Under the pieces are notes generated by a model, which saw only the letters and a list, made by a program, of their open reading frames with translations, ran no database searches and was not told the DNA's origin. DNA of 64,000 bases, taken from NCBI GenBank assembly GCA_964019135.1, contig OZ025264.1:36541994-36605993 (forward strand), read 5' to 3'. Made by a program: the position numbers and the translations under genes. This document shows positions 38,827 to 64,000 of this stretch, one piece after another. Each line of letters begins with the position of its first letter. Positions within the stretch are counted from its first letter, which is position 1. This stretch comes from Arenicola marina (lineage: Eukaryota > Annelida > Polychaeta > Arenicolidae).

Positions 38827-38881
38827 ATGACGGCCCAGTCTTTCTTCTGGATCAGCGTCCTGGCATCTCTCTACACCCAAG
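38827..38881 (+). CDS. Gene B exon 1: signal peptide
   Basis: The start ATG (context GCGGACATGA) opens MTAQSFFWISVLASLYTQ, a hydrophobic secretion signal. The exon ends in phase 1 at CCAAG before GTATGTCAG. The acceptor at 39,734 supplies TG to complete a Val codon, leading into VTSQCADPG of CCP1, so signal cleavage should occur near this junction. Oddly, the last 36 bases plus the donor are repeated ten times in tandem, so ten equivalent donors (38,882 to 39,458, every 64 bp) compete. I chose the first because it gives the shortest normal signal peptide; donors 4, 7 and 10 would also keep frame, adding 64, 128 or 192 residues. Confidence 0.8.
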
Positions 38882-39477
38882 GTATGTCAGTACGCGTCAT
38901 CTCTCGCAGTCTGGATCAGCGTCCTGGCATCTCTCTACACCCAAGGTATGTCAGTACGCGTCATCTCTCGCAGTCTGGATCAACGTCCTGGCATCTCTCT
39001 ACACCCAAGGTATGTCAGTACGCGTCATCTCTCGCAGTCTGGATCAACGTCCTGGCATCTCTCTACACCCAAGGTATGTCAGTACGCGTCATCTCTCGCA
39101 GTCTGGATCAACGTCCTGGCATCTCTCTACACCCAAGGTATGTCAGTACGCGTCATCTCTCGCAGTCTGGATCAACGTCCTGGCATCTCTCTACACCCAA
39201 GGTATGTCAGTACGCGTCATCTCTCGCAGTCTGGATCAGCGTCCTGGCATCTCTCTACACCCAAGGTATGTCAGTACGCGTCATCTCTCGCAGTCTGGAT
39301 CAACGTCCTGGCATCTCTCTACACCCAAGGTATGTCAGTACGCGTCATCTCTCGCAGTCTGGATCAACGTCCTGGCATCTCTCTACACCCAAGGTATGTC
39401 AGTACGCGTCATCTCTCGCAGTCTGGATCAACGTCCTGGCATCTCTCTACAACCAAGGTATGTCAGTACGCGTCATA
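38846..39477. repeat. 64-bp tandem array copying exon 1 tail and donor (gene B intron 1)
   Basis: Ten copies of a 64-bp unit made of 36 bases of exon 1 (TCTGGATCARCGTCCTGG...CACCCAAG), the donor GTATGTCAG, and 28 intron bases ending CATCTCTCGCAG, itself acceptor-like. The first copy is the real exon end. Copies are nearly identical (AGC/AAC in the second codon; the last has ACAACCAAG). As 64 is not a multiple of 3, the array is open in all three frames, giving a continuous 221-codon frame from the exon 1 ATG. Confidence 0.95.
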
Positions 39478-39572
39478 CCAAGTATTCGATAAACCTTTGA
39501 TCTAGTTTGTAACCCAATGCGTCGGAAATGCATTGTAAACATTGTAAACATTATAAAGTCCCGTCGTAAACT

Positions 39573-39603
39573 TATCACTGATAAAACCGGTTTATCGGTG
39601 ATA
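39573..39603. other. 31-base inverted repeat in gene B intron 1
   Basis: TATCACTGATAAA, a short ACCGG centre, then TTTATCGGTGATA: arms complementary at 12 of 13 positions. A further TTTATCAGCGATAA follows at 39,612. It could form a hairpin in the pre-mRNA about 130 bases upstream of the CCP1 acceptor. Function unknown. Confidence 0.7.
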
Positions 39604-39734: not shown

Positions 39735-39932
39735 TGACCTCGCAGTGCGCTGACCCCGGCAGCCCCGGCAATGGGACCCGCCAACTGGACGCCGTCACCG
39801 TGGGCAGCGTGGCCCGCTTCCTATGTAACAACGGCTTCATCGTCGCCAACAGCGTTGACGAGGTGGAGTACGTCATGATCTGCCAGGGCGAACAAGCGCC
39901 CTCATGGAACGGCAGCACTCCGTCATGTACAC
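39735..39932 (+). CDS. Gene B exon 2: CCP (sushi) module 1
   Basis: A 198-bp phase 1-1 exon: acceptor TTGGCCCACAG, donor ACAC before GTGAGTCAG. It encodes one complement control protein module with four cysteines (SQCADPGSPGNG, RFLCNNGF, VMICQGE, TPSC) and the Trp between Cys3 and Cys4 (APSWNGSTPSC). CCP modules are ~60-residue beta-sandwiches that mediate extracellular protein binding, as in complement regulators, selectins and many invertebrate surface receptors. Phase 1-1 exons are the usual way such modules are shuffled and duplicated. Confidence 0.93.
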
Positions 39933-39989
39933 GTGAGTCAGGCGCGTCACACCTGCCCAAGCCTACCACGCCAACACGTAGAATGCTGC

Positions 39990-42900
39990 GGGGTAAAGTA
40001 CTCAAAGTTAAATGGACGATTAAGATAACGTGGTTGAATGGACCACTAAGATAGTGTGGTTAAATCGACCACTAAGATAGCGTGGTTAAATCGACCACTA
40101 AGATAGTGGGGTTAAAGGGACCACTAAGATAGTGTGGTTAAAGGGAACACTAAGATAGTGGGGTTAAATCGACCACTAAGATAGTGGGGTTAAATGGACC
40201 ACTGAGATAGTGTGGTTAAATCGACCACTAAGATAGTAAGATTAAAAGGACCACTAAGATAGTGAGGTTAAAGGGACCACTAAGATAGTGTGGTTAAATC
40301 GACCACTAAGATAGTGTGGTTAAATCGACCACTAAGATAGTGGGGTTAAAGGGACCACTGAGATAGTGTGGTTAAAGGGAACACTAAGATAGTGGGGTTA
40401 AATCGACCACTAAGATAGTGGGGTTAAATCGACCACTAAGATAGTGTGGTTAAATCGACCACTAAGATAGTGATGTTAAAGGGACCACTAAGATAGTGAG
40501 GTTAAAGGGACCACTAAGATAGTGTGGTTAAAGGGACCACTAAGATAGGTGGTTAAAGGGACCACTAAGATAGTGGGGTTAAAGGGACCACTAAGATAGT
40601 GTGGTTAAAGGGACCACTAAGATAGTGGGGTTAAAGGGACCATTAAGATAGTGGAGTTAAAGGGACCACTCAGATAGTGGGGTTAAAGGGACCACTGAGA
40701 TAGTGGGGTTAAAGGGACCACTAAGATAGTGGGGTTAAAGGGACCACAAAGATAGTGGGGTTAAATCGACCACTAAAATAGTGGGGTCAAAGGGACCACT
40801 AAGATAGTGTCGTTAAATCGAACACTAAGATAGTGTAGTTGAATCGAACACTAAGATAGTGGGGTTAAATGGACCACTAAGATAGTGGGGTTAAAGGGAC
40901 CACTAAGATAGTGGGGTTAAAGGGACCAATAAGATAGTGGGGTTAAATCGACCACTAAAATAGTGGGGTCAAAGGGACCACTAAGATAGTGTGGTTAAAT
41001 CGAACACTAAGATAGTGTAGTTGAATCGAACACTAAGATAGTGGGGTTAAATGGACCACTAAGATAGTGGGGTTAAAGGGACCACTAAGATAGTGGGGTT
41101 AAAGGGACCACTAAGATAGTGGGGTTAAAGGGACCACTAAGATAGTGTGGTTAAATCGACCACTAAGATAGTGAGATTAAAAGGACCACTAAGATAGTGA
41201 GGTTAAAGGGCCCACTGGGATAGTGGGGTTAAATGGACCACTAAGATAGTGGGGTTAAGGGGACCACTGAGATAGTGGGGTTAAAGGGACCACTAAGATA
41301 GTGGGGTTAAAGGGGCCACTAAGATAGTGGGGTTAAGGGGACCACTGAGATAGTGGGGTTAAAGGGAACACTAAGATAGTGGGGTTAAAGGGACCACTAA
41401 GATAGTGGGGTAAAATCGACCACTAAAATAGTGGGGTTAAATCGACCAATAAGATAGTGGGGTTAAAGGGACCACTAAGATAGTGGGGTTAAAGGGACCA
41501 CTAAGAAAGTGTGATTAAAGGGACCACTAAGATAGTGGGGTTAAAGGGACCACTGAGATAGTGGGGTTAAAAGGACCACTAAGATAAAATGACCACTGAG
41601 ATAGTGGGGTTCAAAGGACCACTAAGATAATGCGGTTAAATGGACCATTAAGATAGTGTGGTTAAATCGACCACTAAGATAGTGGGGTTAAAGGGTCCAC
41701 TAAGATAGTGGGGTTAAATCGACCACTAAGATAGTGTGGTTAAATCGACCACTAAGATAGTGATGTTAAAGGGACCACTAAGATAGTGTGGTTAAAGGGA
41801 CCACTAAGATAGGGTGGTTAAAGGGACCACTAAGATAGTGGGGTTAAAGGGACCACTAAGATAGTGTGGTTAAAGGGACCACTAAGATAGTGGGGTTAAA
41901 GGGACCATTAAGATAGTGGGGTTAAAGGGACCACTCAGATAGTGGGGTTAAAGGGACCACTGAGATAGTGGGGTTAAAGGGACCACTAAGATAGTGGGGT
42001 TAAAGGGACCACAAAGATAGTGGGGTTAAATCGACCACTAAAATAGTGGGGTTAAAAGGACCACTGAGATAGTTGAGTTAAAGGGACCACTAAGATAGTG
42101 GGGTTAAATCGACCACTAAGATAGTGGGCTTAAATCGACCACTAAGATAGTGTGGTTAAAGGGACCACTAAGATAGTGTGATTGAAGGGACCACTAAGAT
42201 AGTGGGGTTAAAGGGACCACTAAGATAGTGGGGTTAAATCGACCACTAAGATAGTGGGGTTAAATCGACCACTAAGATAGTGGGGTTAAATCGACCACTA
42301 AGATAGTGGGGTTGAAGGGATCACTGAGATAGTGGGGTTAAAGGGACCACTAAGATAGTGGGCTTAAATGGACCACTAAGATAGCGGGGTTAAAGGGACC
42401 ACTAAGATAGTGTGATTAAAGGGACCACTAAGATAGTGGGGTTAAAGGGACCACTAAGATAGTGTGGTTATAGGGACCACTAAGATAGTGGGATTAAATG
42501 GACCACTAAGATAGTGGGGTTAAAGGGATCACTAAGATAGTGGGGTTAAAGGGACCACTAAGATAGTGGGGTTAAAGGGACCGCTGAGATAGTGGGGTTA
42601 AATCGACCACTAAGATAGTGGGGTTAAATCGACCACTAAGATAGTGGGGTTAAGGGGACCACTAAGATAGTGGGGTTGAAGGGATCACTGAGATAGTGGG
42701 GTTAAAGGGACCACTAAGATAGTGGGCTTAAATGGACCACTAAGATAGCGGGGTTAAAGGGACCACTAAGATAGTGTGATTAAAGGGACCACTAAGATAG
42801 TGGGGTTAAAGGGACCACTAAGATAGTGTGGTTATAGGGACCACTAAGATAGTGGGATTAAATGGACCACTAAGATAGTGGGGTTAAAGGGATCACTAAG

Positions 42901-43555
42901 ATAGTGGGGTTAAAGGGACCACTAAGATAGTGGGGTTAAAGGGACCACTAAGATAGTGGGGTTAAAGGGACCACTAAGATAGTGGGATTAAATGGACCAC
43001 TAAGATAGTGGGGTTAAAGGGATCACTAAGATAGTGGGGTTAAAGGGACCACTAAGATAGTGGGGTTAAATGGACCACTAAGATAGTGGGGTTAAAGGGA
43101 CCACTAAGATAGTGTGTTTAAAGGGACCACTAAGATAGTAGCGTTAAAGGGACCACTAAGATAGTGTGGTTAAAGGGACCACTAAGATAGTGTGGTTAAA
43201 GGGACCACTAAGATAGTGGGGTTAAAGGGACCACTAAGATAGTGTGATTAAAGGGACCACTAAGATAGTGGGGTTAAAGGGACCACTAAGATAGTGTGGT
43301 TATAGGGACCACTAAAATAGTGGGATTAAATGGACCACTAAGATAGTGGGCTTAAAGGGACCTCTAAGATAGTGGGGTTAAAGGGACCACTAAGATAGTG
43401 GGGTTAAAGGGACCACTAAGATAGTGGGGTTAAATGGACCACTAAGATAGTGTGGCTAAATGGACCCCTAAGATAGTGTGATTAAATGGACCGCTAAGAT
43501 AGTGTAGCTAAATGGACCTCTAAGATAGTGTGGGTAAGTTGACCACTAAGAAAGC
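39990..43555. repeat. 26-bp minisatellite (gene B intron 2)
   Basis: About 137 copies of GGTTAAAGGGACCACTAAGA followed by TAGTGG. The main alternations are AAAGGGACC/AAATCGACC/AAATGGACC and GGGG/GTGG. A block near 42,300-42,560 recurs at about 42,660-42,920 (TTGAAGGGATCACTGAGAT onward), showing larger duplications. It starts about 60 bp after the CCP1 donor but does not include it. Confidence 0.94.
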
Positions 43556-43577: not shown

Positions 43578-45336
43578 TAACTGTCGGTGGTAGGATTATT
43601 ACCACCATGCAGCTGTCGCTTGTAGGTCTCTGCCATCACACGACAGATGTCATTGGTAGGTTTATGCCATCACCAGACATTTTTCGGTGGTAAGTCTGCC
43701 ATCACCAGACATCTGTCGGTGGTAGGTCTGCCATCACCAGACATCTGTCAGTAATAGGGCTGTGCCATCACCAGACAGCTGTCGGTAATAGGACTGCCAT
43801 CACCAGACATCTGTCAGTAATAGGACTGTGCCATCACCAGACAGCTGTCGGTGGAAGGACTGTGCCATCACCAGACAGCTGTCGGTGGTAGGACTGTGCC
43901 ATCACCAGACAGCTGTCGGTGATAGGACTGTGCCATCACCAGACAGCTGTCGGTAATAGGACTGTGCCATCACCAGACAGCTGTCGGTAATAGGACTGCC
44001 ATCACCAGACATCTGTCAGCAATAGGACTGTGCCATCACCAGACAGCTGTCAGTAATAGGACTGTGCCATCACCAGACAGCTGTCAGTAATAGGACTGCC
44101 ATCACCAGACAGCTGTCGGTAATAGGACTGCCATCACCAGACATTTTTCGGTGGTAAGTCTGCCATCACCAGACATCTGTCGGTGGTAGGTCTGCCATCA
44201 CCAGACAGCTGTCAGTAATAGGACTGTGCCATCACCAGACAGCTGTCGGTAATAGGACTGTGCCATCACCAGACATCTATCGGTGGTAGGACTGCCATCA
44301 CCAAACAGCTGTCGGTGGTAGGACTGCCATCACCAGACAGCTGTCGGTGGTAGGTCTGTGCCATCACCAGACAGCTGTCGGTAATAGGACTGACATCACC
44401 AGACAGCTGTCGGTAATAGGACTGCCATCACCAGACAGCTGTCAGTAATAGGACTGCCATCACCAGACAGCTTTCGGTGATAGGACTGCCATCACCAGAC
44501 AGCTGTCGGTAATAGGACTGCCATCACCAGACAGCTGTCGGTAATAGGACTGCCATCACCAGACAGCTGTCGGTAATAGGACTGCCATCACCAGACAGCT
44601 GTCGGTAATAGGACTGTGCCATCACCAGACAGCTGTCGGTATTAGGACTGCCATCACCAGACAGCTGTCGGTGGTAGGTCTGTGCCATCACCAGACAGCT
44701 GTCGGTAATAGGACTGTGCCATCACCAGACAGCTGTCGGTAATAGGACTGTGCCATCACCAGACAGCTGTCGGTAATAGGACTGCCATCACCAGACAGCT
44801 GTCGGTAATAGGACTGCCATCACCAGACAGCTGTCGGTAATAGGACTGTGCCATCACCAGACAGCTGTCGGTGGTAGGTCTGTGCCGTCACCAGACAGCT
44901 GTCGGTAATAGGACTGTGCCATCACCAGACAGCTGTCGGTAATAGGACTGTGCCATCACCAGACAGCTGTCGGTAATAGGACTGCCATCACCAGACATCT
45001 GTCGGTAATAGGACTGTGCCATCACCAGACAGCTGTCGGTGGTAGGTCTGTGCCATCACCAGACAGCTGTCGGTAATAGGACTGTGCCATCACCAGACAG
45101 CTGTCGGTAATAGGACTGTGCCATCACCAGACAGCTGTCGGTAATAGGACTGCCATCACCAAACAGCTGTCGGTAATAGGACTGCCATCACCAAACAGCT
45201 GTCGGTAATAGGACTGCCATCACCAGACAGCTGTCGGTAATAGGACTGTGCCATCACCAGACAGCTGTCGCTAATAGGACTGCCATCACCAGACAGCTGT
45301 CGGTAATAGGACTGCCATTACCAGACAGCTGTCGGT
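43578..45336. repeat. 32/34-bp minisatellite (gene B intron 2)
   Basis: About 53 copies of CATCACCAGACAGCTGTCGG followed by TAATAGGACTG(TG)C; the optional TG makes 32- and 34-bp units that alternate irregularly. It ends about 55 bp before the CCP2 acceptor. It contains the dyad CAGCTG but no copied exon sequence. Confidence 0.93.
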
Positions 45337-45391: not shown

Positions 45392-45574
45392 CTCGCCCGT
45401 GTCCGAGCCTCTCTGTGGTGGCCAATGCCACCATGACCGGCCAGGGCGGCTTCTACTCGGATGTCGTCACGGTGACATGTGACTCAGGTTATCGCACTTC
45501 TGTGGGCACCGTGGAGACGACCTTGCTGTGTCAGGCAGATGGCCGGTGGTCGGTGGTGCTACCTGTCTGTGACG
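45392..45574 (+). CDS. Gene B exon 3: CCP module 2
   Basis: A 183-bp phase 1-1 exon: acceptor GTTTCTCTGTCAG, donor GACG before GTGGGTACC. CCP signature: RPCPSLSVVAN, VTVTCDSGY, TLLCQADGRW, LPVC, i.e. four cysteines with Trp in DGRW. It has N-linked glycosylation potential at NAT. No breaks. Confidence 0.93.
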
Positions 45575-45911: not shown

Positions 45912-46094
45912 GGGTGCAGTGTAGCGACCCGGAGCCTGTGGCTGGGGGTCGCCTGCTGGGTGATAATACAGAGTTCCGGTTCAAGGACACGGCTGAGTAT
46001 GAATGTGACCTTGGCTACCACGTGACCCAGGGTGACAGCACGCTGGTGTGCAACATGTTGGGAACTTGGGACGGCTTGTGGCCAGTGTGTGAAC
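45912..46094 (+). CDS. Gene B exon 4: CCP module 3
   Basis: A 183-bp phase 1-1 exon: acceptor TTGTTTCACAG, donor GAAC before GTAAGCAAT. It encodes VQCSDPEPVAGGRL, AEYECDLGYHVTQG, LVCNMLGTWDG, WPVC: the four CCP cysteines and the conserved Trp. Length and phases match its neighbours. Confidence 0.93.
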
Positions 46095-46549: not shown

Positions 46550-47107
46550 ATTAGCTAAATGTTGTCAAGAGACCGACGCCCATAGCCTATATGTAAATAT
46601 TGTCAAGAGACCGACGCCCATAGCCTATATCTAAATATTGTCAAGAGACCGACGCCCATAGCCTATATGTAAATATTGTCAAGAGACCGATGCCCAAAGC
46701 CTATATGTAAATATTGTCAAGAGACCGACGCCCATAGCTTATATGTAAACATTGTCAAGAGACCGACGCCCATAGCCTATATGTAAATATTGTCAAGAGA
46801 CCGACGCCCATAGCCTATATGTAAATATTGTCAAGAGACCGACGCCCATAGCCTATATGTAAATATTGTCAAGAGACCGACGCCCATAGCCTATATGTAA
46901 ATATTGTCAAGAGACCGACGCCCATAGCCTATATGTAAATATTGTCAAGAGACCGACGCCCATAGCCTATATGTCAATATTGTCAAGAGACCGACGCCCA
47001 TAGCCTATATGTAAATATTGTCAAGAGACCGATGGCCATAGCCTATATGTAAACATTGTCAAGAGACCGACGCCCATAGCCTATATGTAAAGAGACCGAC
47101 GCCCATC
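46550..47107. repeat. 38-bp minisatellite (gene B intron 4)
   Basis: About 14.5 copies of a 38-bp unit with core TGTCAAGAGACCGACGCCCA then TAGCCTATATGTAAATAT. It is very homogeneous (few single-base variants), suggesting recent spread. It is central in the intron and not linked to a splice site. Confidence 0.94.
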
Positions 47108-47456: not shown

Positions 47457-47633
47457 GAATGGACTGTGGGGCTCCGGAACCTCTGGATCACGCCTCGCAG
47501 CTGATGACCGGATCACAGTACGGCGACTGGGTCCGGTACACCTGTCACTCCGGATACATGAGGAACCCGGCAAAGGGAGACCTGCAACGCAACTGCACAG
47601 GATCCTGGACTGGCGACCCCCCGGAGTGTGTGG
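47457..47633 (+). CDS. Gene B exon 5: CCP module 4
   Basis: A 177-bp phase 1-1 exon: acceptor TTTGATTCAG, donor GTGTGG before GTACGTACA. CCP signature: MDCGAPEPLDHASQ, VRYTCHSGYMRN, QRNCTGSWTGDPPEC, with four cysteines and Trp. The 3' end (GAGTGTGTGG then GTACGTACACCCC) is the seed of the 31-bp array that follows at once, so its donor has about 158 imperfect neighbours. Confidence 0.93.
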
Positions 47634-50600
47634 GTACGTACACCCCAGTGTGTGGGTGGGTATAGACCTACACCCCCAGTGTGTGGGTGGGTATAGACGT
47701 ACACTCCCAGTGTGTGGGTGGGTATAGACGTAAACCCCCCGTGTGTGGGTGGGTATAGGCGTACACCCCCCGTGTGTGGGTGGGTATAGGCGTACACCCC
47801 CAGTGTGTGGCTGGGTATAGGCGTACACCCCCAGTGTGTAGGTGGGTATAGGCGTACACCCGCAGTGTGAGGGTGGGTATAGACGTACACCCCCAGTGTG
47901 AGGGTGGGTATAGACGTACACCCCCAGTGTGAGGGTGGGTATAGACGTACACCCCCAGTGTGAGGGTGGGTATAGACGTACACCCCCAGTGTGAGGGTGG
48001 GTATACAAGTACACCCCCAGTGTGCGGGTGGGTATAGACGTACACCTCCCGTGTGTGGCTGGGTATACAAGTACACCCCCAGTGTGTGGCTGGGTATAGG
48101 CGTACACCCCCCGTGTGTGGGTGGGTATAGACGTACACCCCCCGTGTGTAGGTGGGTATAGACGTACACTCCCAGTGTGTGGGTGGGTATAAACGTACAC
48201 TCCCAGTGTGTGGGTGGGTGTAGACGTACACTCCCAGGGTGTGGCTGGGTATAGACGTAAACCCCCCGTGTGTGGGTGGGTATAGACGTACACCCCCCGT
48301 GTGTGGGTGGGTATAGGCGTACACCCCCCGTGTGTAGGTGGGTATAGGCGTACACCCGCAGTGTGAGGCTGGGTATAGACGTACACCCCCATTCTGTGGG
48401 TGGGTATAGGCGTACACCCCTAGTGTGTGGGTGGGTATAAACGTACACCCCCAGTGTGTGGGTGGGTATACAAGTTCACCCACCGTGTGTGGGTGGGTAT
48501 ACAAGTAAACCCCCAGTGTGTGGGTGGGTATAGACGTACACCCCCCGTGTGTGGGTGGGTATAGACGTACACTCCCAGTGTGTGGGTGGGTATAGACGTA
48601 CACCCCCAGTGTGTGGGTGGGTATAGACGTACACCCCCCGTGTGTGGGTGGGTATAGACGTACACCCCCAGTGTGTGTGTGGGTATAGACGTACACCCCC
48701 CGTGTGTGGGTGGGTATAGACGTACACCACCCGTGTGTGGGTGGGTATAGACGTACACCCCCCGTGTGTGGGTGGGTATAGACGTACACCCCCAGTGTGT
48801 GTGTGGGTATAGACGTACACCCCCCGTGTGTGGGTGGGTATAGACGTACACCCCCCGTGTGTGGGTGGGTATAGACGTACACCACCCGTGTGTGGGTGGG
48901 TATAGACGTACACCCCCCGTGTGTGGGTGGGTATAGACGTACACCCCCCGTGTGTGGGTGGGTATAGACGTACACCACCCGTGTGTGGGTGGGTATAGAC
49001 GTACACCACCCGTGTGTGGGTGGGTATAGACGTACACCCCCCGTGTGTGGGTGGGTATAGACGTACACCCCCAGTGTGTGTGTGGGTATAGACGTACACC
49101 CCCCGTGTGTGGGTGGGTATAGACGTACACCCCCCGTGTGTGGGTGGGTATAGACGTACACCACCCGTGTGTGGGTGGGTATAGACGTACACCACCCGTG
49201 TGTGGGTGGGTATAGACGTACACCCCCAGTGTGTGTGTGGGTATAGACGTACACCCCCCGTGTGTGGGTGGGTATAGACGTACACCCCCCGTGTGTGGGT
49301 GGGTATATACGTACACCACCCGTGTGTGGGTGGGTATAGACGTACACCACCCGTGTGTGGGTGGGTATAGACGTACACTCCCAGTGTGCGGGTGGGTATA
49401 GGCGTACACCCCCAGTTTGTGGGTGGGTATAGGCGTAGACCCCCAGTGTGCGGGTGGGTATAGACTTACACCCCCCGTGTGTGGGTGGGTATAGACGTAC
49501 ACCCCCCGTGTGTGGGTGGGTTTAGACGTACACCCCCATTGTGTGGGTGAGTATAGGTGTAGACCCCCAGTGTGTGGGTGGGTATAGGCGTACACCCCCA
49601 GTGTGTGGCTGGGTATAGACTTACACCTCCAGTTTGTGGGTGGGCATACAAGTACACCCCCCGTGTGGGTGGGTATCGACGTACACTCCCCGTGTGTGGG
49701 TGGGTGTAGACGTACACTCCCCGTGTGCGGGTGGGTATACAAGTACACCCCCAGTGTGCGGGTGGGTATAGACGTACACCCCCCGTGTGTGGCTGGGTAT
49801 ACAAGTACACCCCCAGTGTGTGGCTGGGTACAGGCGTACACCCCCCGTGTGTGGGTGGGTGTAGACGTACACCCCCCGTGTGTAGGTGGGTATAGACGTA
49901 CACTCCCAGTGTGTGGGTGGGTATAAACGTACACTCCCCGTGTGTGGGTGGGTATAGGCGTACACCCCCCGTGTGTGGGTGGGTATAGGCGTATACCCCC
50001 AGTGTGTGGGTGGGTATAGACGTAAACCCCCAGTGTGTGGGTGCGTATAGACGTAAACCCCCCGTGTGTGGGTGGGTATAGGCGTACACCCCCCGTGTGT
50101 GGCTGGGTATACAAGTACACCCCCAGTGTGCGGGTGGGTATAGACGTACACCACCAGTGTGTGGGTGCGTATAGACGTAAACCCCCAGTGTGTGGGTGGG
50201 TATAGACCTACACCACCCGTGTGTGGCTGGGTATAGACGTAAACCCCCCGTGTGTGGGTGGGTATAGGCGTACACCCCCCGTGTGTGGGTGGGTATAGGC
50301 GTATACCCCCAGTGTGTGGGTGGGTATAGACGTACACCCCCAGTGTGTGGGTGCGTATAGACGTAAACCCCCCGTGTGTGGGTGGGTATAGGCGTACACC
50401 CCCCGTGTGTGGGTGGGTATAGGCGTATACCCCCAGTGTGTGGGTGGGTATAGACGTAAACCCCCCGTGTGCGGGTGGGTATAGGCGTACACCCCCAGTG
50501 TGTGGCTGGGTATACAAGTACACCCCCAGTGTGTGGGTGCGTATAGACGTAAACCCCCAGTGTGTGGGTGCGTATAGACGTAAACCCCCAGTGTGTGGGT

Positions 50601-52756: not shown

Positions 52757-54986
52757 GTGAGTGAAGCGTTCTGTATCTGCCAGTGTAGCGTTCTTTATCT
52801 GTGAGTGTAGCGTTCTGCATCCCTGAGTGTAGCGTTCTGGATCTGTGAGTGTAACGTTCTGTATCTGTCAGTGTAGCGTTCTGGATCTGTGAGTGCAGCA
52901 TTCTGTATCTGTCAGTGTAGCGTTCTGTATCTGTCAGTGTAGCGTTCTGGATCTGTGAGTGCAGCATTCTGTATCCCTGAGTGTAGCGTTCTGGATCTGT
53001 GAGTGTAGCGTTCTGTATCTGAGAGTGTAGCGTTCTGTATCCCTGAGTGTAGCGTTCTGTATCTGTGAGTGTAGCGTTCTGTATCTGAGAGTGTAGCGTT
53101 ATGTATCTGTGAGTGTAGCGTTCTGTATCTGAGAGTGTAGCGTTCTGTATCTGTCAGTGTAGCGTTCTGGATCTGTGAGTGTAGCGTTCTGTATCTGAGA
53201 GTGTAGCGTTCTGTATCTGAGAGTGTAGCGTTCTGTATCTGAGAGTGTATCGTTCTGTATCTGTGAATGTAGCGTTCTGGATCTGTGAGTGTAGCGTTCT
53301 GCATCCCTGAGTGTAGCGTTCTGGATCTGTGAGTGTAACGTTCTGTATCTGTCAGTGTAGCGTTCTGGATCTGTGAGTGCAGCATTCTGTATCTGTCAGT
53401 GTAGCGTTCTGTATCTGTCAGTGTAGCGTTCTGGATTTGTCAGTGTATCATTCTGTATCTGTCAGTGTATCACTCTATATCTGTCAGTGTATCATTCTGT
53501 ATCTGTCAGTGTATCACTCTATATCTGTCAGTGTAGCGTTCTGTATCTGTCAGTGTAGCGTTCTGTATCTGTCAGTGTAGCGTTCTGGATCTGTGAGTGC
53601 AGCATTCTGTATCCCTGAGTGTAGCGTTCTGTATCCGTGAGTGTAGCGTTCTGGATCTGTCAGTGTAGCGTTCTGGATTTGTCAGTGTATCATTCTGTAT
53701 CTGTCAGTGTATCACTCTATATCTGTCAGTGTATCGTTCTGTATCTGTCAGTGTAGCGTTCTGGATCTGTGAGTGTAGCGTTCTGTATCTGTCAGTGTAA
53801 TGTTCTGTATCTGTGAGTGTAGCGTTCTGTATCTGTGAGTGTAGCGTTATGTATCTGTCAGTGTATCGTTCTGTATCTGTCAGTGTGGCGTTCTGTATCT
53901 GTGAATGTAGCGTTCTGGATCTGTGAATGTAGCGTTCTGGATTTGTGAGTGTAGCGTTCTGTATCTGAGAGTGTAGCGTTCTGTATCTGTCAGTGTATCG
54001 TTCTGTATTTGTGAGTGTAGCGTTCTGTATCTGTGAGTGTAGCGTTCTGGATCTGTGAGTGTAGCGTTCTGGATTTGTGAGTGTAGCGTTCTGTATCTGA
54101 GAGTGTAGCGTTCTGTATCTGTCAGTGTATCGTTCTGTATCTGTGAATGTAGCGTTCTGGATCTGTGAGTGTAGCGTTCTGGATTTGTGAGTGTAGCGTT
54201 CTGTATCTGAGAGTGTAGCGTTCTGTATCTGTGAGTGTAGCGTTCTGTATCTGTGAGTGTAGCGTTCTGTATCTGTGAGTGTAGCGTTCTGTATCTGTGA
54301 GTGTAGCGTTCTGTATCTGTGAGTGTAGCGTTCTGTATCTGTGAGTGTAGCGTTCTGTATCTGAGAGTGTAGCGTTCTGTATCTGTGAGTGTAGCGTTCT
54401 GTATCTGTGAGTGTAGCGTTCTGTATCTGTGAGTGTAGCGTTCTGTATCTGTGAGTGTAGCGTTCTGTATCTGTGAGTGTAGCGTTCTGGATCTGTGAGT
54501 GTAGCGTTCTGTATCTGAGAGTGTAGCGTTCTGTATCTGTGAGTGTAGCGTTCTGTATCTGTGAGTGTAGCGTTCTGTATCTGAGAGTGTAGCGTTCTGT
54601 ATCTGTGAGTGTAGCGTTTTGTATCTGTGAGTGTAGCGTTCTGGATCTGTGAGTGTAGCGTTCTGGATCTGTGAGTGTAGCGTTCTGTATCTGTGAATGT
54701 AGCGTTCTGGATCTGTGAGTGTAGCGTTCTGGATCTGTGAGTGTAGCGTTCTGTATCTGAGAGTGTAGCGTTCTGTATCTGTGAATGTAGCGTTCTGGAT
54801 CTGTGAGTGTAGCGTTCTGGATCTGTGAGTGTAGCGTTCTGTATCTGAGAGTGTAGCGTTCTGTATCTGAGAGTGTAGCGTTCTGTATCTGTGAGTGTAG
54901 CGTTCTGTATCTGTGAGTGTAGCGTTCTGTATCTGAGAGTGTAGCGTTCTGTATCTGAGAGTGTAGCGTTCTGTATCTGAGAGTGT
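52744..54986. repeat. 22-bp minisatellite beginning at the exon 6 donor (gene B intron 6)
   Basis: About 102 copies of a 22-bp unit, GCGTTCTGTATCT plus GTGAGTGTA. The founding copy is the exon end GCGTCCTGCATCC plus GTGAGTGAA, so each unit is 13 exon bases plus a consensus donor. Early copies near 52,815 and 52,970 still carry GCATCC. Donor variants GTCAGTGTA and GAGAGTGTA are frequent. The result is a dense field of GTGAGT sites. Confidence 0.95.
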
Positions 54987-55089: not shown

Positions 55090-55277
55090 GTTTGCGTGCT
55101 GATGTTAACATTATGCTGTACATACATCAGGCATTGCGTGCTGATGTTAACACTATGCTGTACGTACTTTAGGCATTGCGTGCTGATGTTAACACTATGC
55201 TGTAAACACACCAGGCATTGACTGCGGATGATAACACTATGCTGTACATACTCTAGGTATTGCGTGCAGTGACGTGA
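55090..55277. repeat. 42-bp repeat copying the exon 7 acceptor (gene B intron 6)
   Basis: Just over four copies of a 42-bp unit: GCATTGCGTGCTGATGTTAA, CACTATGCTGTACGTAC, TTTAG. The last copy runs into the real exon (TCTAG before GTATTGCGTGCAGTGACG), so each unit contains an AG acceptor followed by a version of the first ~20 exon bases. Intron 6 thus has junction-derived arrays at both ends. Confidence 0.9.
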
Positions 55278-55433
55278 ACTCCTCTGTGAATGCGGTCACC
55301 TCTTCCGACTCGTTCTTCTTCGGCGACGTGAAGGCCTACACGTGTGTGCCGGGTTACACAGTCACCAGTGGACAGTTACGGAGACCCTGTCTCCACACAG
55401 GGGCGTTTGAAGGCAGCCCACCAGTCTGTGAGC
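55257..55433 (+). CDS. Gene B exon 7: CCP module 6
   Basis: A 177-bp phase 1-1 exon: acceptor CATACTCTAG, donor GAGC before GTCAGTATC (a weaker GTCAGT). It encodes IACSDVNSSVNAV, VKAYTCVPGYTVTSG, RRPCLHTGAFEGSPPVC. All four CCP cysteines are present, but the usual Trp between Cys3 and Cys4 is replaced (GAFEGS), the only module here without it. N-glycosylation motif NSS. The acceptor sits at the end of a short array of copies of itself. Confidence 0.9.
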
Positions 55434-55570
55434 GTCAGTATCACGTCCTGGCCTCACATATAGATTACTGATGTATCGCCAGAAATTTGTCGCGAGCCTA
55501 CATAAATCGTGTGACATCTGATGCCTCCATTGGTGTATCTTTGCTAAGATACTGGGAGCTTTAATCACAG

Positions 55571-57021
55571 GTCGGGAAGGGGGATCACTGTAAAGTCCAA
55601 TGAGATAAACACTTTTACCCACAGTGGCGGGTTGGGAAGAGGGATCACTGTCATGTCCAATGAGATAAACACCTTTACCCACAGTGTCGGGTCGGGAAGA
55701 GAGATCACAGACTGTAAAGCCCAAAGAGATAAACACCTTTACCCACAGTGGCGGGTCGGGAAGAGAGATCACTGTAATGTCCAATGAGATAAACACCTTT
55801 ACCCACAGTGTCGGGTCGGGAAGAGAGATCACTGTAAAGTCCAATGAGATAAACACCTTTACCCACAGTGGCGGGTCGGGAAGAGAGATCACAGACTGTA
55901 AAGCCCAAAGAGATAAACACCTTTACCCACAGTGGCGGGTCGGGAAGAGAGATCACTGTAAAGTCCAATGAGATAAACACTTTTACCCACAGTGGCGGGT
56001 TGGGAAGAGGGATCACTGTAATGTCCAATGAGATTAACACCTTTACCCACAGTGTCGGGTCGGGAAGAGAGATCACAGACTGTAAAGCCCAAAGAGATAA
56101 ACACCTTTACCCACAGTGGCGGGTCGGGAAGAGAGATCACTGTAATGTCCAATGAGATAAACACCTTTACCCACAGTGTCGGGTCGGGAAGAGAGATCAC
56201 TGTAAAGTCCAATGAGATAAACACCTTTACCCACAGTGGCGGGTCGGGAAGAGAGATCACAGACTGTAAAGCCCAAAGAGATAAACACCTTTACCCACAG
56301 TGGCGGGTCGGGAAGAGGGATCACAGAGTGTAAAGTCCAATAAGATAAACATCTTTACTCACAGTGGCGGATCGGAAAGAGGGATCACTGTAAAGCCCAA
56401 CGAGATAAACACCTTTACCCACAGTGGCGGGTCGGAAAGAGGGTTCACTGTAAAGTCCAATGAGATAAACACCTTTACCCACAGTGGCGGGTCGGAAAGA
56501 GGGTTCACTGTAAAGTCCAATGAGATAGACACCTTTACCCACAGTGGCTGGTCGGAAAGAGGGATCACTGTAAAGTCCAATGAGATAAACATTTTTACCC
56601 ACAATGGCGGGTCGGGAAGAGGGTTCACTGTAAAGTCCAATGAGATAAACACCTTTACCCACAGTGGCGGGTCGGAAAGAGGGATCACTGTCAAGCCCAA
56701 TGAGATAAACACCTTTACCCACAGTGGCGGGTCAGGAAGAGAGATCACAGACTGTAAAGCCCAAAGAGATAAACACCTTTACCCACAGTGGCGGGTCGGA
56801 AAGAGGGATCACTGTCAAGCCCAATGAGATAAACACCATTAACCACAGTGGCGGGTCGGGAAGAGGGATCACTGTAAAGTCCAATGAGATAAACACCTTT
56901 ACCCACAGTGGCGGGTCGGGAAGAGAGATCACTGTAAAGTCCAAAGAGATAAACACCTTTACCCACAGTGGCGGGTCGGGAAGAGGGATCACTGTAAAGT
57001 CCAATGAGATAAACACCTTTG
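55571..57021. repeat. 60-bp minisatellite with a 184-bp higher-order unit (gene B intron 7)
   Basis: About 24 copies of a 60-bp unit with core GAGATAAACACCTTTACCCA then CAGTGGCGGGTCGGGAAGAG. Between about 55,684 and 56,330, every third unit has four extra bases (ATCACAGACTGTAAAG), making a 184-bp higher-order repeat present about four times. Many copies are open in both strands as 60 is a multiple of 3. No copied splice junction seen. Confidence 0.93.
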
Positions 57022-57445: not shown

Positions 57446-57634
57446 GAGTGTCGTGTGGCAACCCAGGGGACGTCTCCAACAGCGTGAGAGAAGGTCAAGG
57501 TCATCACTTCAGGGACATGGTGAAGTACACGTGTGATATTGGTTATGAGATTGTTGGTCAACCAAACATTGCAAGCCGTTCCTTGACCTGTCAGTTTGAC
57601 GGTAACTGGAGTCTCCCGATGCCCGAGTGTCACA
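57446..57634 (+). CDS. Gene B exon 8: CCP module 7
   Basis: A 189-bp phase 1-1 exon: acceptor TACGCCTTCAG, donor CACA before GTAAGTACA. CCP signature: VSCGNPGDVSNSV, VKYTCDIGYEIVG, LTCQFDGNWSLP, PEC, with four cysteines and Trp (DGNW). Followed by an intron without tandem repeats. Confidence 0.93.
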
Positions 57635-58075: not shown

Positions 58076-58255
58076 GAGTGACGTGTGGAGGCATCATTCT
58101 GACCTCGAATGTGGTGGTGGCGTCCGAAGATGGCGTTCACTATGGCGACTCGGTCACGCTCGAGTGTCAGACGGGCTACCTCTACAACAGTGGCTCCCTT
58201 ATGCGGCACTGCCGAGAGGACAAGCGTTGGAATGGAACCTCCCCAACGTGCACTC
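58076..58255 (+). CDS. Gene B exon 9: CCP module 8
   Basis: A 180-bp phase 1-1 exon: acceptor CTCTCGTTACAG, donor ACTC before GTACGTAGT. CCP signature: VTCGGIILTSNV, VTLECQTGYLYNSG, RHCREDKRWNG, PTC, with four cysteines and Trp; N-glycosylation motif NGT. Followed by a plain 404-bp intron. Confidence 0.93.
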
Positions 58256-58659: not shown

Positions 58660-58854
58660 CTGTGAAGTGCGGAGCCCCACCTTCCGCCCCCGACGTTAAG
58701 GTGGCAGGAGATCGATTCTACTTCCCCTTCAGTGTCTTCTACAGCTGCGAGACCGGGTACGAAGTGGTGCCGTCCGACTCGCCCAGCACCTCAAATGGGT
58801 TGACATGTTCCAAGGACGGGAACTGGGAGGGCGCCGGACTGCCCGCCTGTCAGA
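58660..58854 (+). CDS. Gene B exon 10: CCP module 9
   Basis: A 195-bp phase 1-1 exon: acceptor ATCCTTTTTCAG, donor CAGA before GTGAGTGGT. CCP signature: VKCGAPPSAPDV, VFYSCETGYEVV, LTCSKDGNWEG, LPAC, with four cysteines and Trp. Its last ~30 bases and the donor are copied as the 69-bp array that follows. Reading through the donor meets a stop within 9 codons, so use of a downstream decoy donor would truncate the protein. Confidence 0.93.
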
Positions 58855-59519
58855 GTGAGTGGTACTGGTTGACGTGGTGAGAGGCCGGGGTCTTGGAAGG
58901 CGCCGGACTGCCCGCCTGTCAGAGTGAGTGGTACGGGTTGACGTGGTGGGAGGCCGGGGTCTGGGAGGGCGCCGGACTGCCCGCCTGTCAGAGTGACTGA
59001 TACGGGTTGACGCGGTGGGAGTCCGGGGTCTGGGAGGGCGCAGGACTGCCCGCCTGTCAGAGTGAGTGATACGGGTTGTCGTGAAGGGAGTCCGGGGTCT
59101 CGGAGGGCGCCGGACTGCCCGCCTGTCAGAGTGACTGATACGGGTTGACGTGGTGGGAGGCCGGGGTCTGGGAGGGCGCCGGACTGCCCGCCTGTCAGAG
59201 TGAGTGATACAGGTTGACGCGGTGGGAGGCCGGGGTCTGGGAGGGCGCCGGACTGCCCGTCTGTCAGATTGAGTGATACGGGTTGACGTGGTGGGAGTCC
59301 GGGTTCTGGGAGGGCGCCGGACTGCCCGCCTGTCAGAGTGAGTGATACAGGTTGACGCGGTGGGAGGCCGGGGTCTTGGGGGGGGGCGCCGGAGTGCCCG
59401 CCTGTCAGAGTGAGTGGTACGGGTTGACGTGGTGGAAGGCCGGGGTCTGGGAGGGCGCCGGACTGCCCGCCTGTCAGAGTGAGTGATACGGGTTGACGTG
59501 GTGGGAGTCCGGGTTCTGG
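58825..59519. repeat. 69-bp array copying exon 10 tail and donor (gene B intron 10)
   Basis: Ten copies of a 69-bp unit: about 30 exon bases (GGAGGGCGCCGGACTGCCCG then CCTGTCAGA), the donor GTGAGTGAT, and 30 intron bases (GGGTTGACGTGGTGGGAGG...). The first copy is the real exon end. Exon-derived and intron-derived halves are equally conserved between copies, so there is no sign that only the exon half is under constraint. Confidence 0.95.
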
Positions 59520-59687: not shown

Positions 59688-59885
59688 AGGTGGCGTGCAA
59701 ACCCCCCCAGCGCATCAGAAGCGCTTCCCTGGTGTCCCCTGCGCCTGGGGACGGCGTCTACCTTTTCGGCGACTCCGTAACGTACGCCTGCGATGTGGGG
59801 CACCGCTGGAACCCCGCGTCAGGGGCCCTGGCGCGCAACTGTACGGGCACCAAGTCCTGGAGCGGCGACCCCCCGGCCTGCGAGC
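59688..59885 (+). CDS. Gene B exon 11: CCP module 10
   Basis: A 198-bp phase 1-1 exon: acceptor GACGGTTTCAG, donor GAGC before GTAAGTACC. CCP signature: VACKPPQRIRSA, VTYACDVGHRWNPA, ARNCTGTKSWSGDPPAC, with four cysteines and Trp. This Cys3-Cys4 segment is very like module 4 (NCTGSWTGDPPEC). The gene continues past the window. The terminal 34 bases and donor seed the array filling the rest of the window. Confidence 0.93.
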
Positions 59886-62800
59886 GTAAGTACCAAGTCC
59901 TGGAGCGGCCACCCCCCGGCCTGCCATCGTAAGTACCTAGTCCTGGAGCGGCCATCCCCCAGCCTGCCATCGTAAGTACCAAGTCCTGGAGCGGCCACCC
60001 CCCGGCCTGCCATCGTAAGTACCAAGTCCTGGAGCGACCACGCCCCGGCCTACCATCGTAAGTACCAAGTCCTGGAGCGGCCATCCCCCAGCCTGCCATC
60101 GTAAATACCAAGTCCTGGAGCGGCCACCCCCCGGCCTGCCATCGTAAGTACCAAGTCCTGGAGCGGCCACTCCCCGGCCTGCCATCGTAAGTACCAAGTC
60201 CTGGAGCGGCCACCCCCCGGCCTGCCATCGTAAGTACCAAGTCCTGGAGCGGCCACCCCCTGGCCTGCCATCGTAAGTACCAAGTCCTGGAGCGGCGACC
60301 CCCCGGCCTGCCATTGTAAGTACCAAGTCCTGGAGCGGCCATCCCCCAGCCTGCCATCGTAAGCACCAAGTCCTGGAGCGGCCACCCCCCGGCCTGCCAT
60401 TGTAAGTACCAAGTCCTAGAGCGGCCACCCCCCGGCCTGCCATCGTAAGTACCAAGTCCTGGAACGGATATCCCCCAGCCTGCTATCGTAAGTACCAAGT
60501 CCTGGAGCGGCGCCCCCCCCCCCCCGGCCTGCCATCGTAAGTACCTAGTCCTCGAGCGGCGCCCCCCGGCCTGCCATCGTAAGTACCTAGTCCTCGAGCG
60601 GCCACCCCCCGGCCTACCATCGTAAATACCAAGTCCTGGAGCGGCCATCCCCCAGCCTGCCATCGTAAGTACCAAGTCCTGGAGCGGCCATCCCCCAGCC
60701 TGCCATCGTAAGTACCTAGTCCTGGAGCGGCCATCCCCCAGCCTGCCATCGTAAGTACCAAGTCCTGGAGCGGCCATCCCCCAGCCTGCCATCGTAAGTA
60801 CCTAGTCCTGGAACGGCCATCCCCCAGCCTGCCATCGTAAGTACCTAGTCCTGGAGCGGCCACCCCCCGGCCTACCATCGTAAGTACCAAGTCCTGGAGC
60901 GGCCATCCCCCAGCCTGCCATCGTAAGTACCAAGTCCTGGAGCGGCCACCCCCCGGCCTGCCATCGTAAGTACCAAGTCCTAGAGCGGCCATCCCCCTGT
61001 CTGCCATCGTAAGTACCAAGTCCTGGAGCGGCCATCCCCCAGCCTGCCATCGTAAGTACCAAGTCCTGGAGCGGCCATCCCCCAGCCTGCCATCGTAAGT
61101 ACCTAGTCCTGGAGCGGCCATCCCCCAGCCTGCCATCGTAAGTACCTAGTCCTGGAGCGGCCACCCCCCGGCCTACCATCGTAAGTACCAAGTCCTGGAG
61201 CGGCCATCCCCCAGCCTGCCATCGTAAGTACCAAGTCCTAGAGCGGCCAACCCCCGGCCTGCCATCGTAAGTACCAAGTCCTGGAGCGGCCATCCCCCAG
61301 CCTGCCATCGTAAGTACCAAGTCCTGGAGCGGCCACCCCCCGGCCTGCCATCGTAAGTACCAAGTCCTAGAGCGGCCATCCCCCTGTCTGCCATCGTAAG
61401 TACCAGGTCCTGGAGCGGCCACCCCCCGGCCTGCCATCGTAAGTACCAAGTCCTGGAGCGGCCATTCCCCAGCCTGCCATCGTAAGTACCTAGTCTTGGA
61501 GCGGCCACCCCCCCGGCCTGCCATCGTAAGTACCAAGTCCTAGAGCGGCCATCCCCCTGCCTGCCATCGTAAGTACCAGGTCCTGGAGCGGCCACCCCCC
61601 GGCCTGCCATCGTAAGTACCAAGTCCTGGAGCGGCCATCCCCCAGCCTGCCATCGTAAGTACCAAGTCCTGGAGCGGCGCCCCCCCCCCCCGGCCTGCCA
61701 TCGTAAGTACCAAGTCCTGGAGCGGCCATCCCCCTGCCTGCCATCGTAAGTACCAGGTCCTGGAGCGGCCACCCCCCGGCCTGCCATCGTAAGTACCAAG
61801 TCCTGGAACGGCCATCCCCCAGCCTGCCATCGTAAGTACCCAAGTTCTGGAGCGGCGCCCCCCCCCCCCCGGCCTGCCATCGTAAGTACCAAGTCCTGGA
61901 GCGGCCACCCCCCGGCCTGCCATCGTAAGTACCAAGTCCTGGAGCGGCCACCCCCCGGCCTGCCATCGTAAGTACCAAGTCCTGGAGCGGCCATCCCCCA
62001 GCCTGCGAGCGTAAGTACCTAGTCCTGGAGCGGCCACCCCCCGGCCTGCCATCGTAAGTACCAAGTCCTAGAGCGGCCAACCCCCGGCCTGCCATCGTAA
62101 GTACCAAGTCCTGGAGCGGCCATCCCCCAGCCTGCCATCGTAAGTACCTAGTCCTGGAGCGGCCACCCCCCGGCCTGCCATCGTAAGTACCAAGTCCTGG
62201 AGCGGCCACCCCCCGGCCTGCCATCGTAAGTACCAAGTCCTGGAGCGGCCATCCCCCAGCCTGCCATCGTAAGTACCAAGTCCTGGAGCGGCCACCCCCC
62301 GGCCTGCCATCGTAAGTACCAAGTCCTAGAGCGGCCATCCCCCTGTCTGCCATCGTAAGTACCAGGTCCTGGAGCGGCCACCCCCCGGCCTGCCATCGTA
62401 AGTACCAAGTCCTGGAGCGGCCATTCCCCAGCCTGCCATCGTAAGTACCTAGTCCTGGAGCGGCCACCCCCCCGGCCTGCCATCGTAAGTACCAAGTCCT
62501 AGAGCGGCCATCCCCCTGCCTGCCATCGTAAGTACCAGGTCCTGGAGCGGCCACCCCCCGGCCTGCCATCGTAAGTACCAAGTCCTGGAGCGGCCATCCC
62601 CCAGCCTGCCATCGTAAGTACCAAGTCCTGGAGCGGCGCCCCCCCCCCGGCCTGCCATCGTAAGTACCAAGTCCTGGAGCGGCCATCCCCCTGCCTGCCA
62701 TCGTAAGTACCAGGTCCTGGAGCGGCCACCCCCCGGCCTGCCATCGTAAGTACCAAATCCTGGAGCGGCCATCCCCCAGCCTGCCATCGTAAGTACCTAG

Positions 62801-64000
62801 TCCTGGAGCGGCCACCCCCCGGCCTACCATCGTAAGTACCAAGTCCTGGAGCGGCCATCCCCCAGCCTGCCATCGTAAGTACCAAGTCCTAGAGCGGCCA
62901 ACCCCCGGCCTGCCATCGTAAGTACCAAGTCCTGGAGCGGCCATCCCCCAGCCTGCCATCGTAAGTACCAAGTCCTGGAGCGGCCACCCCCCGGCCTGCC
63001 ATCGTAAGTACCAAGTCCTAGAGCGGCCATCCCCCTGTCTGCCATCGTAAGTACCAGGTCCTGGAGCGGCCACCCCCCGGCCTGCCATCGTAAGTACCAA
63101 GTCCTGGAGCGGCCATTCCCCAGCCTGCCATCGTAAGTACCTAGTCCTGGAGCGGCCACCCCCCCGGCCTGCCATCGTAAGTACCAAGTCCTAGAGCGGC
63201 CATCCCCCTGCCTGCCATCGTAAGTACCAGGTCCTGGAGCGGCCACCCCCCGGCCTGCCATCGTAAGTACCAAGTCCTGGAGCGGCCATCCCCCAGCCTG
63301 CCATCGTAAGTACCAAGTCCTGGAGCGGCGCCCCCCCCCCCGGCCTGCCATCGTAAGTACCAAGTCCTGGAGCGGCCATCCCCCTGCCTGCCATCGTAAG
63401 TACCAGGTCCTGGAGCGGCCACCCCCCGGCCTGCCATCGTAAGTACCAAGTCCTGGAACGGCCATCCCCCAGCCTGCCATCGTAAGTACCCAAGTTCTGG
63501 AGCGGCGCCCCCCCCCCCGGCCTGCCATCGTAAGTACCAAGTCCTGGAGCGGCCACCCCCCGGCCTGCCATCGTAAGTACCAAGTCCTAGAGCGGCCACC
63601 CCCCGGCCTGCCATCGTAAGTACCAAGTCCTGGAACGGATATCCCCCAGCCTGCTATCGTAAGTACCAAGTCCTGGAGCGGCGCCCCCCCCCCCGGCCTG
63701 CCATCGTAAGTACCTAGTCCTCGAGCGGCGCCCCCCGGCCTGCCATCGTAAGTACCTAGTCCTCGAGCGGCCACCCCCCGGCCTACCATCGTAAATACCA
63801 AGTCCTGGAGCGGCCATCCCCCAGCCTGCCATCGTAAGTACCAAGTCCTGGAGCGGCCATCCCCCAGCCTGCCATCGTAAGTACCTAGTCCTGGAGCGGC
63901 CATCCCCCAGCCTGCCATCGTAAGTACCAAGTCCTGGAGCGGCCATCCCCCAGCCTGCCATCGTAAGTACCTAGTCCTGGAACGGCCATCCCCCAGCCTG
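59852..64000. repeat. 43-bp array copying exon 11 tail and donor (gene B intron 11)
   Basis: About 96 copies, running off the window, of a 43-bp unit: GTAAGTACC then AAGTCCTGGAGCGGCCACCC and CCCGGCCTGCCATC. This is the last ~34 exon bases (AAGTCCTGGAGCGGCGACCC, CCCGGCCTGCGAGC) plus a near-perfect donor. Most copies have CCATC where the exon has CGAGC, but one at about 61,999-62,016 keeps CTGCGAGCGTAAGTACC and one at about 60,295 keeps GGCGACCCCCC, so exon-like variants are scattered through it. C-runs vary from 6 to 14. Text at 60,461 recurs at 63,632. Confidence 0.95.

Follow-up and report, generated by a model that had tools for sequence, protein, structure and literature searches.

The window analysed here is a stretch of 64,000 bp from contig OZ025264.1 of the lugworm Arenicola marina. 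It contains gene A, which has a VWA exon and lies on the minus strand, and the greater part of the introns of gene B, which codes for a sushi-domain protein on the plus strand. Gene B has 14 exons and 13 introns, rather than the eleven introns counted in the initial annotation; ten introns and the start of the eleventh lie inside the window. Pfam recognised 12 sushi stretches in the whole gene B protein, and the exon borders in the window were set from the sushi exons:

38827..38881, plus strand: exon 1, start codon and signal-like leader (ATG and donor AAG/GTATGT read directly; probably the first coding exon)
39735..39932, plus strand: exon 2, sushi (Pfam)
45392..45574, plus strand: exon 3, sushi
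45912..46094, plus strand: exon 4, sushi
47457..47633, plus strand: exon 5, sushi
52574..52756, plus strand: exon 6, sushi
55257..55433, plus strand: exon 7, sushi
57446..57634, plus strand: exon 8, sushi (borders and match to public protein)
58076..58255, plus strand: exon 9, sushi (borders and match to public protein)
58660..58854, plus strand: exon 10, sushi (borders and match to public protein)
59688..59885, plus strand: exon 11, sushi (borders and match to public protein)

Within the window, all ten internal exons of gene B have lengths divisible by three, as do all 17 exons of a neighbouring EGF gene. Our own splicing of gene B exons 8 to 14 was identical to the C-terminal 479 residues of a public protein from A. 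marina, a match that ruled out amphioxus as the source of the DNA. In the model of this protein, exons 10 and 11 are each connected from the first copy of their donor to the exon that follows. As its start is an ATG located within intron 7, the protein looks like a prediction and is no proof of splicing.

The initial annotation had described minisatellites straddling exon-intron borders, with unit lengths of 64, 31, 22, 69, 43, and 42 bp in gene B and 58 bp in gene A. TRF recovered all of these arrays. In gene B they lie at the donors of exons 1, 5, 6, 10, and 11 and at the acceptor of exon 7, the case of exon 5 being probable:

1225..3467, minus strand: 58-bp array with the acceptor of the VWA exon of gene A (TRF; border by eye, VWA by Pfam)
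38846..39476, plus strand: 64-bp array over the exon 1 donor (TRF; 36 exon bp per unit, 9.9 copies, GT in 8 of 8 further copies)
47625..52535, plus strand: 31-bp array probably over the exon 5 donor, ~158 copies (TRF 47636-52535; exon overlap by eye)
52744..54986, plus strand: 22-bp array over the exon 6 donor (TRF; 13 exon bp, 102 copies)
55092..55267, plus strand: 42-bp array over the exon 7 acceptor (TRF; 11 exon bp, 4.2 copies, AG in 3 of 3 further copies)
58823..59519, plus strand: 69-bp array over the exon 10 donor (TRF; 32 exon bp, 10 copies, GT in 8 of 9 further copies)
59849..64000, continuing to 69731, plus strand: 43-bp array over the exon 11 donor (TRF; 37 exon bp, 228 copies in total)

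Intron 6 thus ends, as proposed earlier, in an array that carries its 3′ splice site and the start of exon 7. At exon 5, direct reading showed that the exon tail AGTGTGTGG followed by GT recurs in the unit; the first unit, however, is 8 bp short, and the array called by TRF begins 2 bp inside the intron, so that TRF borders alone do not recover the crossing and the case is probable rather than clean. The acceptor of gene A does lie within the repeat unit, but only about four exon bases, read by eye, are included. Intron 1 of gene A starts with a 45-bp array located ~50 bp inside the intron, the border being uncrossed.

Comparison of TRF arrays with exon borders also placed four arrays of gene B away from the borders, in agreement with the initial annotation:

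40007..43551, plus strand: 26-bp intronic array, starting 75 bp past the exon 2 donor (TRF)
43603..45336, plus strand: 33/34-bp intronic array (TRF)
46556..47091, plus strand: 38-bp intronic array (TRF)
55570..57020, plus strand: 60/184-bp intronic array (TRF)

Of the 17 donors and 17 acceptors in the EGF gene, arrays cross four and two, respectively. Taken together, the two genes have nine crossed donors (exon 5 of gene B by direct reading) and three crossed acceptors (one by an array of two copies only); 13 arrays cross a border, including one at a stop codon, and 21 do not, two of these touching a border. Further acceptor crossings were found at a sushi exon (L074) and at an exon of a CCT chaperonin (L115). 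The CCT exons served as a housekeeping control, planned on 46/49 matches; in the six exons covered by the counts, none of the donors and one of the acceptors was crossed. Stop codons are crossed as well, that of gene B by a 67-bp array (92723-93767) and that of an aminotransferase gene by a 40-bp array (144343-144707), two cases that were noticed in passing and have no denominator. Crossed donors of a KH gene and of the aminotransferase gene, found by eye, were excluded from all rates. Minisatellites made up ~46% of 40 kb drawn from eight contigs, and the longest arrays reach 26 kb.

Most copies in these arrays retain an intact splice dinucleotide, and up to ~245 copies occur at a single border. 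When copies with less than 80% identity were omitted, GT was present in 153 of 154, 101 of 101, 232 of 244, and, at exon 11 (226 copies walked), 195 of 196 copies, and AG in 52 of 52; the EGF exon 7 acceptor array has 53 copies. At exon 6, GT was kept in 74 of 97 copies (100 walked). Overall, GT or AG was found in most copies of 10 of the 11 splice-border arrays walked, the register slipping in the exon 5 array, so that its 0 of 154 is no usable count; EGF exon 10, with its array of two copies, lay outside this walk. Mean identity of the copies to their consensus is between 90% and 99.6% depending on the array, and copies carry private differences. With regard to concerted evolution sparing the unit at the gene edge, the picture is mixed: the edge unit is less consensus-like than the remaining copies at exon 6 (0.82 versus 0.94), exon 7 (0.86 versus 0.93), and EGF exon 17 (0.87 versus 0.97), whereas no such drop is seen at EGF exons 3 and 13 and at exon 11 of gene B.

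For an estimate that did not depend on the arrays, we sampled 80 sushi exons regardless of their presence. From 524 candidates 150 were scored, of which 86 were chosen and 64 dropped on visual inspection (domains in a multi-domain stretch on C2 that lacks introns, gene B, and places taken for near-identical paralogues on the basis of score rather than alignment); 80 of the 86 were analysed, and 77 donors and 63 acceptors could be placed. Likely paralogous pairs left in the sample are L061/L065, L084/L101, L044/L053, and L038/L039. A border was counted as crossed when a 16-bp window over it recurred at a cut-off of 13 of 16 bp. By this measure 13 of 77 donors, but only 2 of 63 acceptors were crossed (Fisher p 0.008; 0.019 minus two donor paralogues). 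None of 160 exon midpoints and none of 400 shuffles had a recurring 16-bp window, which supports the earlier claim that arrays and borders are associated above chance. In three of the 13 crossed donors (L079, L084, L101) the overlap with the exon is only slight.

The asymmetry persisted when the expected borders of all 80 exons were used, with splice sites unchosen (13 versus 2, p 0.0025), but was weaker with a stricter window placed mostly within the exon (6 of 80 donors versus 1 of 80 acceptors, p 0.058). Pooling of all sets gave 22 of 113 donors versus 6 of 99 acceptors (p 0.003; 0.025 once three weaker acceptor cases with 12 of 16 bp were counted), and omission of gene B, where the effect was first noticed, gave 17 of 100 versus 5 of 86 (p 0.015). 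The contrast was not significant in gene B alone (p 0.08) or in the EGF gene alone (p 0.33). A bias arising from the 17 unplaced acceptors (compared to 3 donors) was rejected, as in none of them did a repeat passing the cut-off of 13 of 16 bp run over the exon start. At one of these acceptors (L059), a repeat is present in the adjoining intron.

The arrays appear to have arisen independently with one shared geometry, as had been suggested: only 6 of 1225 pairs among 50 units were alike. A shared mobile unit was rejected on these grounds; border arrays contribute a single alike pair, from EGF exons 8 and 17, the units of which share homologous exon tails. Selection for whole codons was likewise rejected, as only 4 of 14 unit lengths are multiples of three. 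The GC content was 0.50 for units of non-crossing arrays compared to 0.41 for unique intron sequence and 0.58 to 0.60 for exons. With the arrays of the two genes collapsed to one unit and placed uniformly, 2.4 donors and 2.4 acceptors are expected to be crossed, compared to the nine and three observed. We replaced this as sole null by a GC-weighted one, which weakens the border excess: it raises the expectation to 4.1 donors and 3.5 acceptors (P for at least nine donors 0.014; for at least 12 borders 0.047). Much of the excess therefore needs no mechanism specific to junctions and would follow from GC-biased array birth in short introns, which covers a large part of what the initial annotation had ascribed to the junctions themselves; the excess of donors over acceptors remains and needs more than GC-biased birth.

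Arrays of this kind have been described in amphioxus. The initial annotation pointed to junction-copying minisatellites at the amphioxus Adh locus, and PMC3087553 bears this out. According to this source and PMC3902484, such "mirages" occur in Adh3, TnC, the globins BflGb6 and BflGb9, and PGBD5, with units of 10 to 72 bp in Adh3, 150 to 160 bp in the globins, and 60 and 108 bp in PGBD5, and they are considered possibly general in cephalochordates. In these genes, the repeat unit spans the exon-intron border, many units contain AG or GT, and both 5′ and 3′ borders are affected. The lugworm arrays likewise span borders, carry the splice signal in their copies, affect 5′ and 3′ borders, and have units of comparable length. 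The kind is thus already known, whereas the occurrence in an annelid, and hence in another phylum, and the scale are unusual: ~245 copies at one border compare with the 6 and 3 units reported for the two BflGb6 haplotypes. To these cases the lugworm adds a rate per border, the preference for donors over acceptors, and the crossing of stop codons.

In the Rogers model, exemplified by potato RdRp (PMC4974935), introns are gained when an exon segment containing AGGT is tandemly duplicated in the genome. Splice-competent sequence is copied by tandem duplication there as well; in the lugworm, in contrast, existing introns are expanded. In the two genes we found no new intron inside a former exon, the arrays sitting between complete sushi or EGF exons. 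Another annelid, the earthworm, has long tandem arrays with a mean unit of ~180 bp inside intron 1 of metallothionein, but the passages on them in PMC12783039 that were consulted do not describe placement at splice borders. Among the matches listed in openly licensed literature, there was no report of border-crossing arrays in annelids.

We consider it probable that the lugworm border arrays are mirages in this sense, filtered by the order in which a gene is read ("first signal wins"). Local tandem duplication of a segment of 20 to 100 bp that happens to cover an exon border would found a minisatellite; in the sampled stretches such births are frequent and favour GC-rich DNA. Since introns are short without their arrays and exon edges are GC-rich, exon edges would be hit often. 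Where the duplicated segment spans a donor or stop codon, the genuine copy would remain 5′-most, and downstream copies could be ignored, the first donor presumably being bound and committed while the exon is transcribed. Duplication over an acceptor would place complete decoy acceptors before the genuine one and would more often be harmful, so that purifying selection may keep such arrays rarer. The array would then grow and homogenise inside the intron or 3′ untranslated region with its decoy splice sites intact. The higher frequency of arrays where the real signal comes first suggests that the gene can probably ignore the copies; acceptor crossings occur and are sometimes large, which indicates that the filter is leaky.

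Donors could instead be mutational hotspots, where R-loops, nicking, or a paused polymerase at the 5′ splice site set off the duplications, with tolerance playing a minor role. In agreement with this, donor crossings exceed even the GC-weighted expectation, and among the sampled sushi exons the first array edge fell on the exonic side of the donor in 13 cases and within the first 60 intron bases in 5 (P 0.048; 0.105 minus two paralogues). Against it, the exon bases per unit range from ~9 to 85, so that the units keep no constant register relative to the GT. The G-rich sense strand of an R-loop origin is missing too, as the mean GC skew was 0.065 for the 13 crossing and −0.003 for the 21 other arrays (single units −0.81 to 0.6), and we rejected this origin. 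Moreover, stop codons are crossed too, and non-crossing arrays outnumber crossing ones in the two genes. We regard hotspots as an unlikely main cause, and the donor bias fits the tolerance proposed in the initial annotation better than its R-loops, although the donor excess over the GC-weighted null means that some donor-directed birth may also act. Somewhat less likely still is pure chance, that is, arrays born evenly in all non-coding DNA, with short introns and many arrays producing the overlaps. The acceptors match this expectation (three observed, 2.4 to 3.5 expected), and the total of 12 crossings is only marginally above the GC-weighted ~7.5, but donors exceed both nulls and the pooled contrast between donors and acceptors holds with and without gene B.

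An artefact of assembly or annotation, with collapsed or inflated repeats or misplaced exon borders, is very improbable. Arrays in the assembly are as long as 26 kb, and copy numbers may be wrong even if the arrays are real; nevertheless, exon frames are uniform, copies differ privately, and crossed borders on several contigs are anchored by unique coding sequence. The lancelet PGBD5 repeats, according to PMC3902484, were confirmed by re-examined Sanger and new Illumina data. We give even less credence to a function of the decoys, for example in the kinetics of splicing or in a regulated extension of exons. Several arrays have kept their splice dinucleotides nearly complete, but compared with the remainder of the unit these positions show no consistent gain in conservation (0.994/1.000 versus a unit mean of 0.972 at EGF exon 3, 0.951/1.000 versus 0.980 at EGF exon 13), most unit lengths are not multiples of three, and units are unrelated between introns.

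These genes offer natural introns with up to hundreds of near-identical splice sites competing in series, which bears on the choice of the correct 5′ splice site from equal copies and on whether duplication is tolerated better at donors than at acceptors. Tentatively, and with less confidence than for the filter itself, we propose that about half of the A. marina genome may be minisatellite and about one donor in six an array with as many as hundreds of intact decoy 5′ splice sites, that donors and stop codons are multiplied while acceptors and, putatively, start codons rarely are, that the first-transcribed 5′ splice site wins over equal copies in the mRNA, and that distant phyla with such a repeat load would converge on this arrangement. 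If true, the lugworm would represent a natural genome-wide experiment on the first 5′ splice site winning. That border-copying arrays are common in an annelid suggests that heavy minisatellite birth generally gives rise to them. The introns of gene B consist to 91% of arrays, the removal of which shortens the gene from 54 kb to 7.8 kb, and the truncated public protein model suggests that gene prediction may break on such introns.

Gene B, the sushi-domain gene, lies on a 38-Mb contig of the 867-Mb assembly. It starts at window position 38827 and has 14 coding exons, whose product of 865 residues contains 12 sushi stretches (Pfam). It has one domain per exon, in contrast to the locus G000:C2:51736749-51745013, whose two open frames (2041 and 630 codons) are densely filled with sushi domains. 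P0001, a public protein recorded as 'complement receptor-like protein [Arenicola marina]', has 494 residues, of which the last 479 match gene B exons 8-14 as spliced here without a difference. The 15 residues ahead of this stretch are encoded by sequence running from intron 7 into the beginning of exon 8. The underlying gene model lacks exons 1-7. Because it begins inside intron 7, P0001 looks like a gene prediction and does not count as RNA evidence; the large array-filled introns may have broken this prediction.

Arrays account for 46,840 of the 51,373 bases summed over the 13 introns of gene B (91%). Five of its 13 donors (exons 1, 5, 6, 10, and 11; exon 5 a probable case, by direct reading) and one of its 13 acceptors (exon 7) share an array unit with exon sequence. 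All donor arrays listed for introns 1, 5, 6, 10, and 11 in the initial annotation, and its acceptor array in intron 6, were located. The EGF gene upstream, on the minus strand, has 17 EGF exons located by pattern. With at least 5 exon bases in the array, 4 of 17 donors and 2 of 17 acceptors were crossed, one acceptor array consisting of two copies only; two further donors were marginal (4 and 0 exon bases). One array of this gene spans 23 kb with ~245 copies of a 95-bp unit holding 85 bp of a 111-bp exon. Farther downstream, arrays include one donor of a KH-domain gene and one of an aminotransferase gene (by eye). Two arrays beyond the window end cross stop codons and correspond, in the 3' UTR, to the donor arrays (positions from the window start):

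92723-93767, gene B, 67-bp unit
144343-144707, aminotransferase gene, 40-bp unit, read by eye

To assess border preference in gene B and the EGF gene, each array was collapsed to one unit and placed randomly, none wholly within exons. Uniform placement predicts 2.4 donor and 2.4 acceptor crossings, against 9 and 3 observed. Units of the 21 arrays crossing no border had a mean GC content of 0.50, compared with 0.41 in array-free intron and 0.58-0.60 in exons, and GC-weighted placement predicts 4.1 and 3.5 crossings. Donors still exceed the GC-weighted null (P 0.014), acceptors do not; the proposal that splice junctions favour array birth is only partly supported. As the pattern was first noticed in gene B, P values including this gene are optimistic.

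We sampled sushi exons without regard to arrays. Exons were located by HMM and 80 were taken with 180 bp on each side, in which 77 donors and 63 acceptors could be placed. A border was scored as crossed when the 16 bp spanning it recurred, with at least 13 of the 16 matching, in the adjoining 170 bp of intron-side sequence. This applied to 13 of 77 donors and 2 of 63 acceptors, whereas recurrence was seen in 0 of 160 exon-midpoint controls and in 0 of 400 and 1 of 395 shuffled-flank controls. Scoring all 80 exons at the border predicted for each, with no choice of splice site, again gave 13 donors and 2 acceptors (p 0.0025); a comparison window mainly inside the exon gave 6 and 1 (p 0.058). 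Coming from the exon, the first array edge fell before the donor in 13 cases and within the initial 60 bases of the intron in 5 (P 0.048; 0.105 with two paralogues removed); these 13 exons differ from the 13 crossed donors by the addition of L036 and L053 and the loss of L084 and L101. Pooled crossings were 17 of 100 donors and 5 of 86 acceptors without gene B (p 0.015), and 22 of 113 and 6 of 99 with it (p 0.003). Among six CCT chaperonin exons no donor was crossed, and one acceptor was:

G000:C17:26069034-26069552, CCT chaperonin exon (L115) with a 68-bp acceptor-crossing array

Core genes are therefore not exempt, and this housekeeping gene seems to tolerate decoy acceptors.

What is to be explained is a donor-over-acceptor bias added to a general GC-favouring array birth. 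A hotspot directed at donors may start the duplications; however, the units show no mean GC skew on the sense strand, the duplications are not in fixed register with the splice site, and arrays cross stop codons as well. After tandem duplication at a donor or stop codon, the genuine signal is the first copy met 5' to 3', and at an acceptor the last. It is this shared first-copy position of donors and stop codons that leads us to propose that reading order may filter which duplications persist. Such a filter agrees with the intact decoys: most arrays show little sign of removal of copies downstream of the real donor, retention being weakest in the exon 6 array (74 of 97 copies).

The initial annotation pointed to junction-copying minisatellites in amphioxus, and this was borne out: tandem repeats spanning intron-exon borders are called mirages there and are reported not to disturb splicing (PMC3087553, PMC3902484). 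The structural features given there are present in the A. marina arrays, known here from DNA; these arrays belong to the same kind, in a new phylum (annelids) and at larger scale. We found no annelid report of border-crossing arrays in the literature searched, and no description of stop-codon crossings or per-border rates in the literature consulted.

Arrays made up 66% of the 264 kb around the window (G000:C19:36441994-36705993; TRF), their units mostly unrelated to one another, and 18,462 of 40,000 bases (46%; TRF, periods of at least 10) in a small sample of eight random 5-kb stretches from eight other contigs (L022-L029), with shares ranging from 2 to 100%. Minisatellites may inflate genome size. 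Other elements in the window are:

20654-30801, minus strand, ~10-kb array of a 39-bp (13-codon) unit, open in frame
4842-7983, minus strand, broken open frame
17485-20243, minus strand, broken open frame
32535-36137, plus strand, broken open frame

The broken frames resemble non-LTR retrotransposon endonuclease/reverse transcriptase. The flanks of the 39-bp array resemble parts of a retrotransposon ORF, and this array seems to have grown within mobile-element coding sequence.
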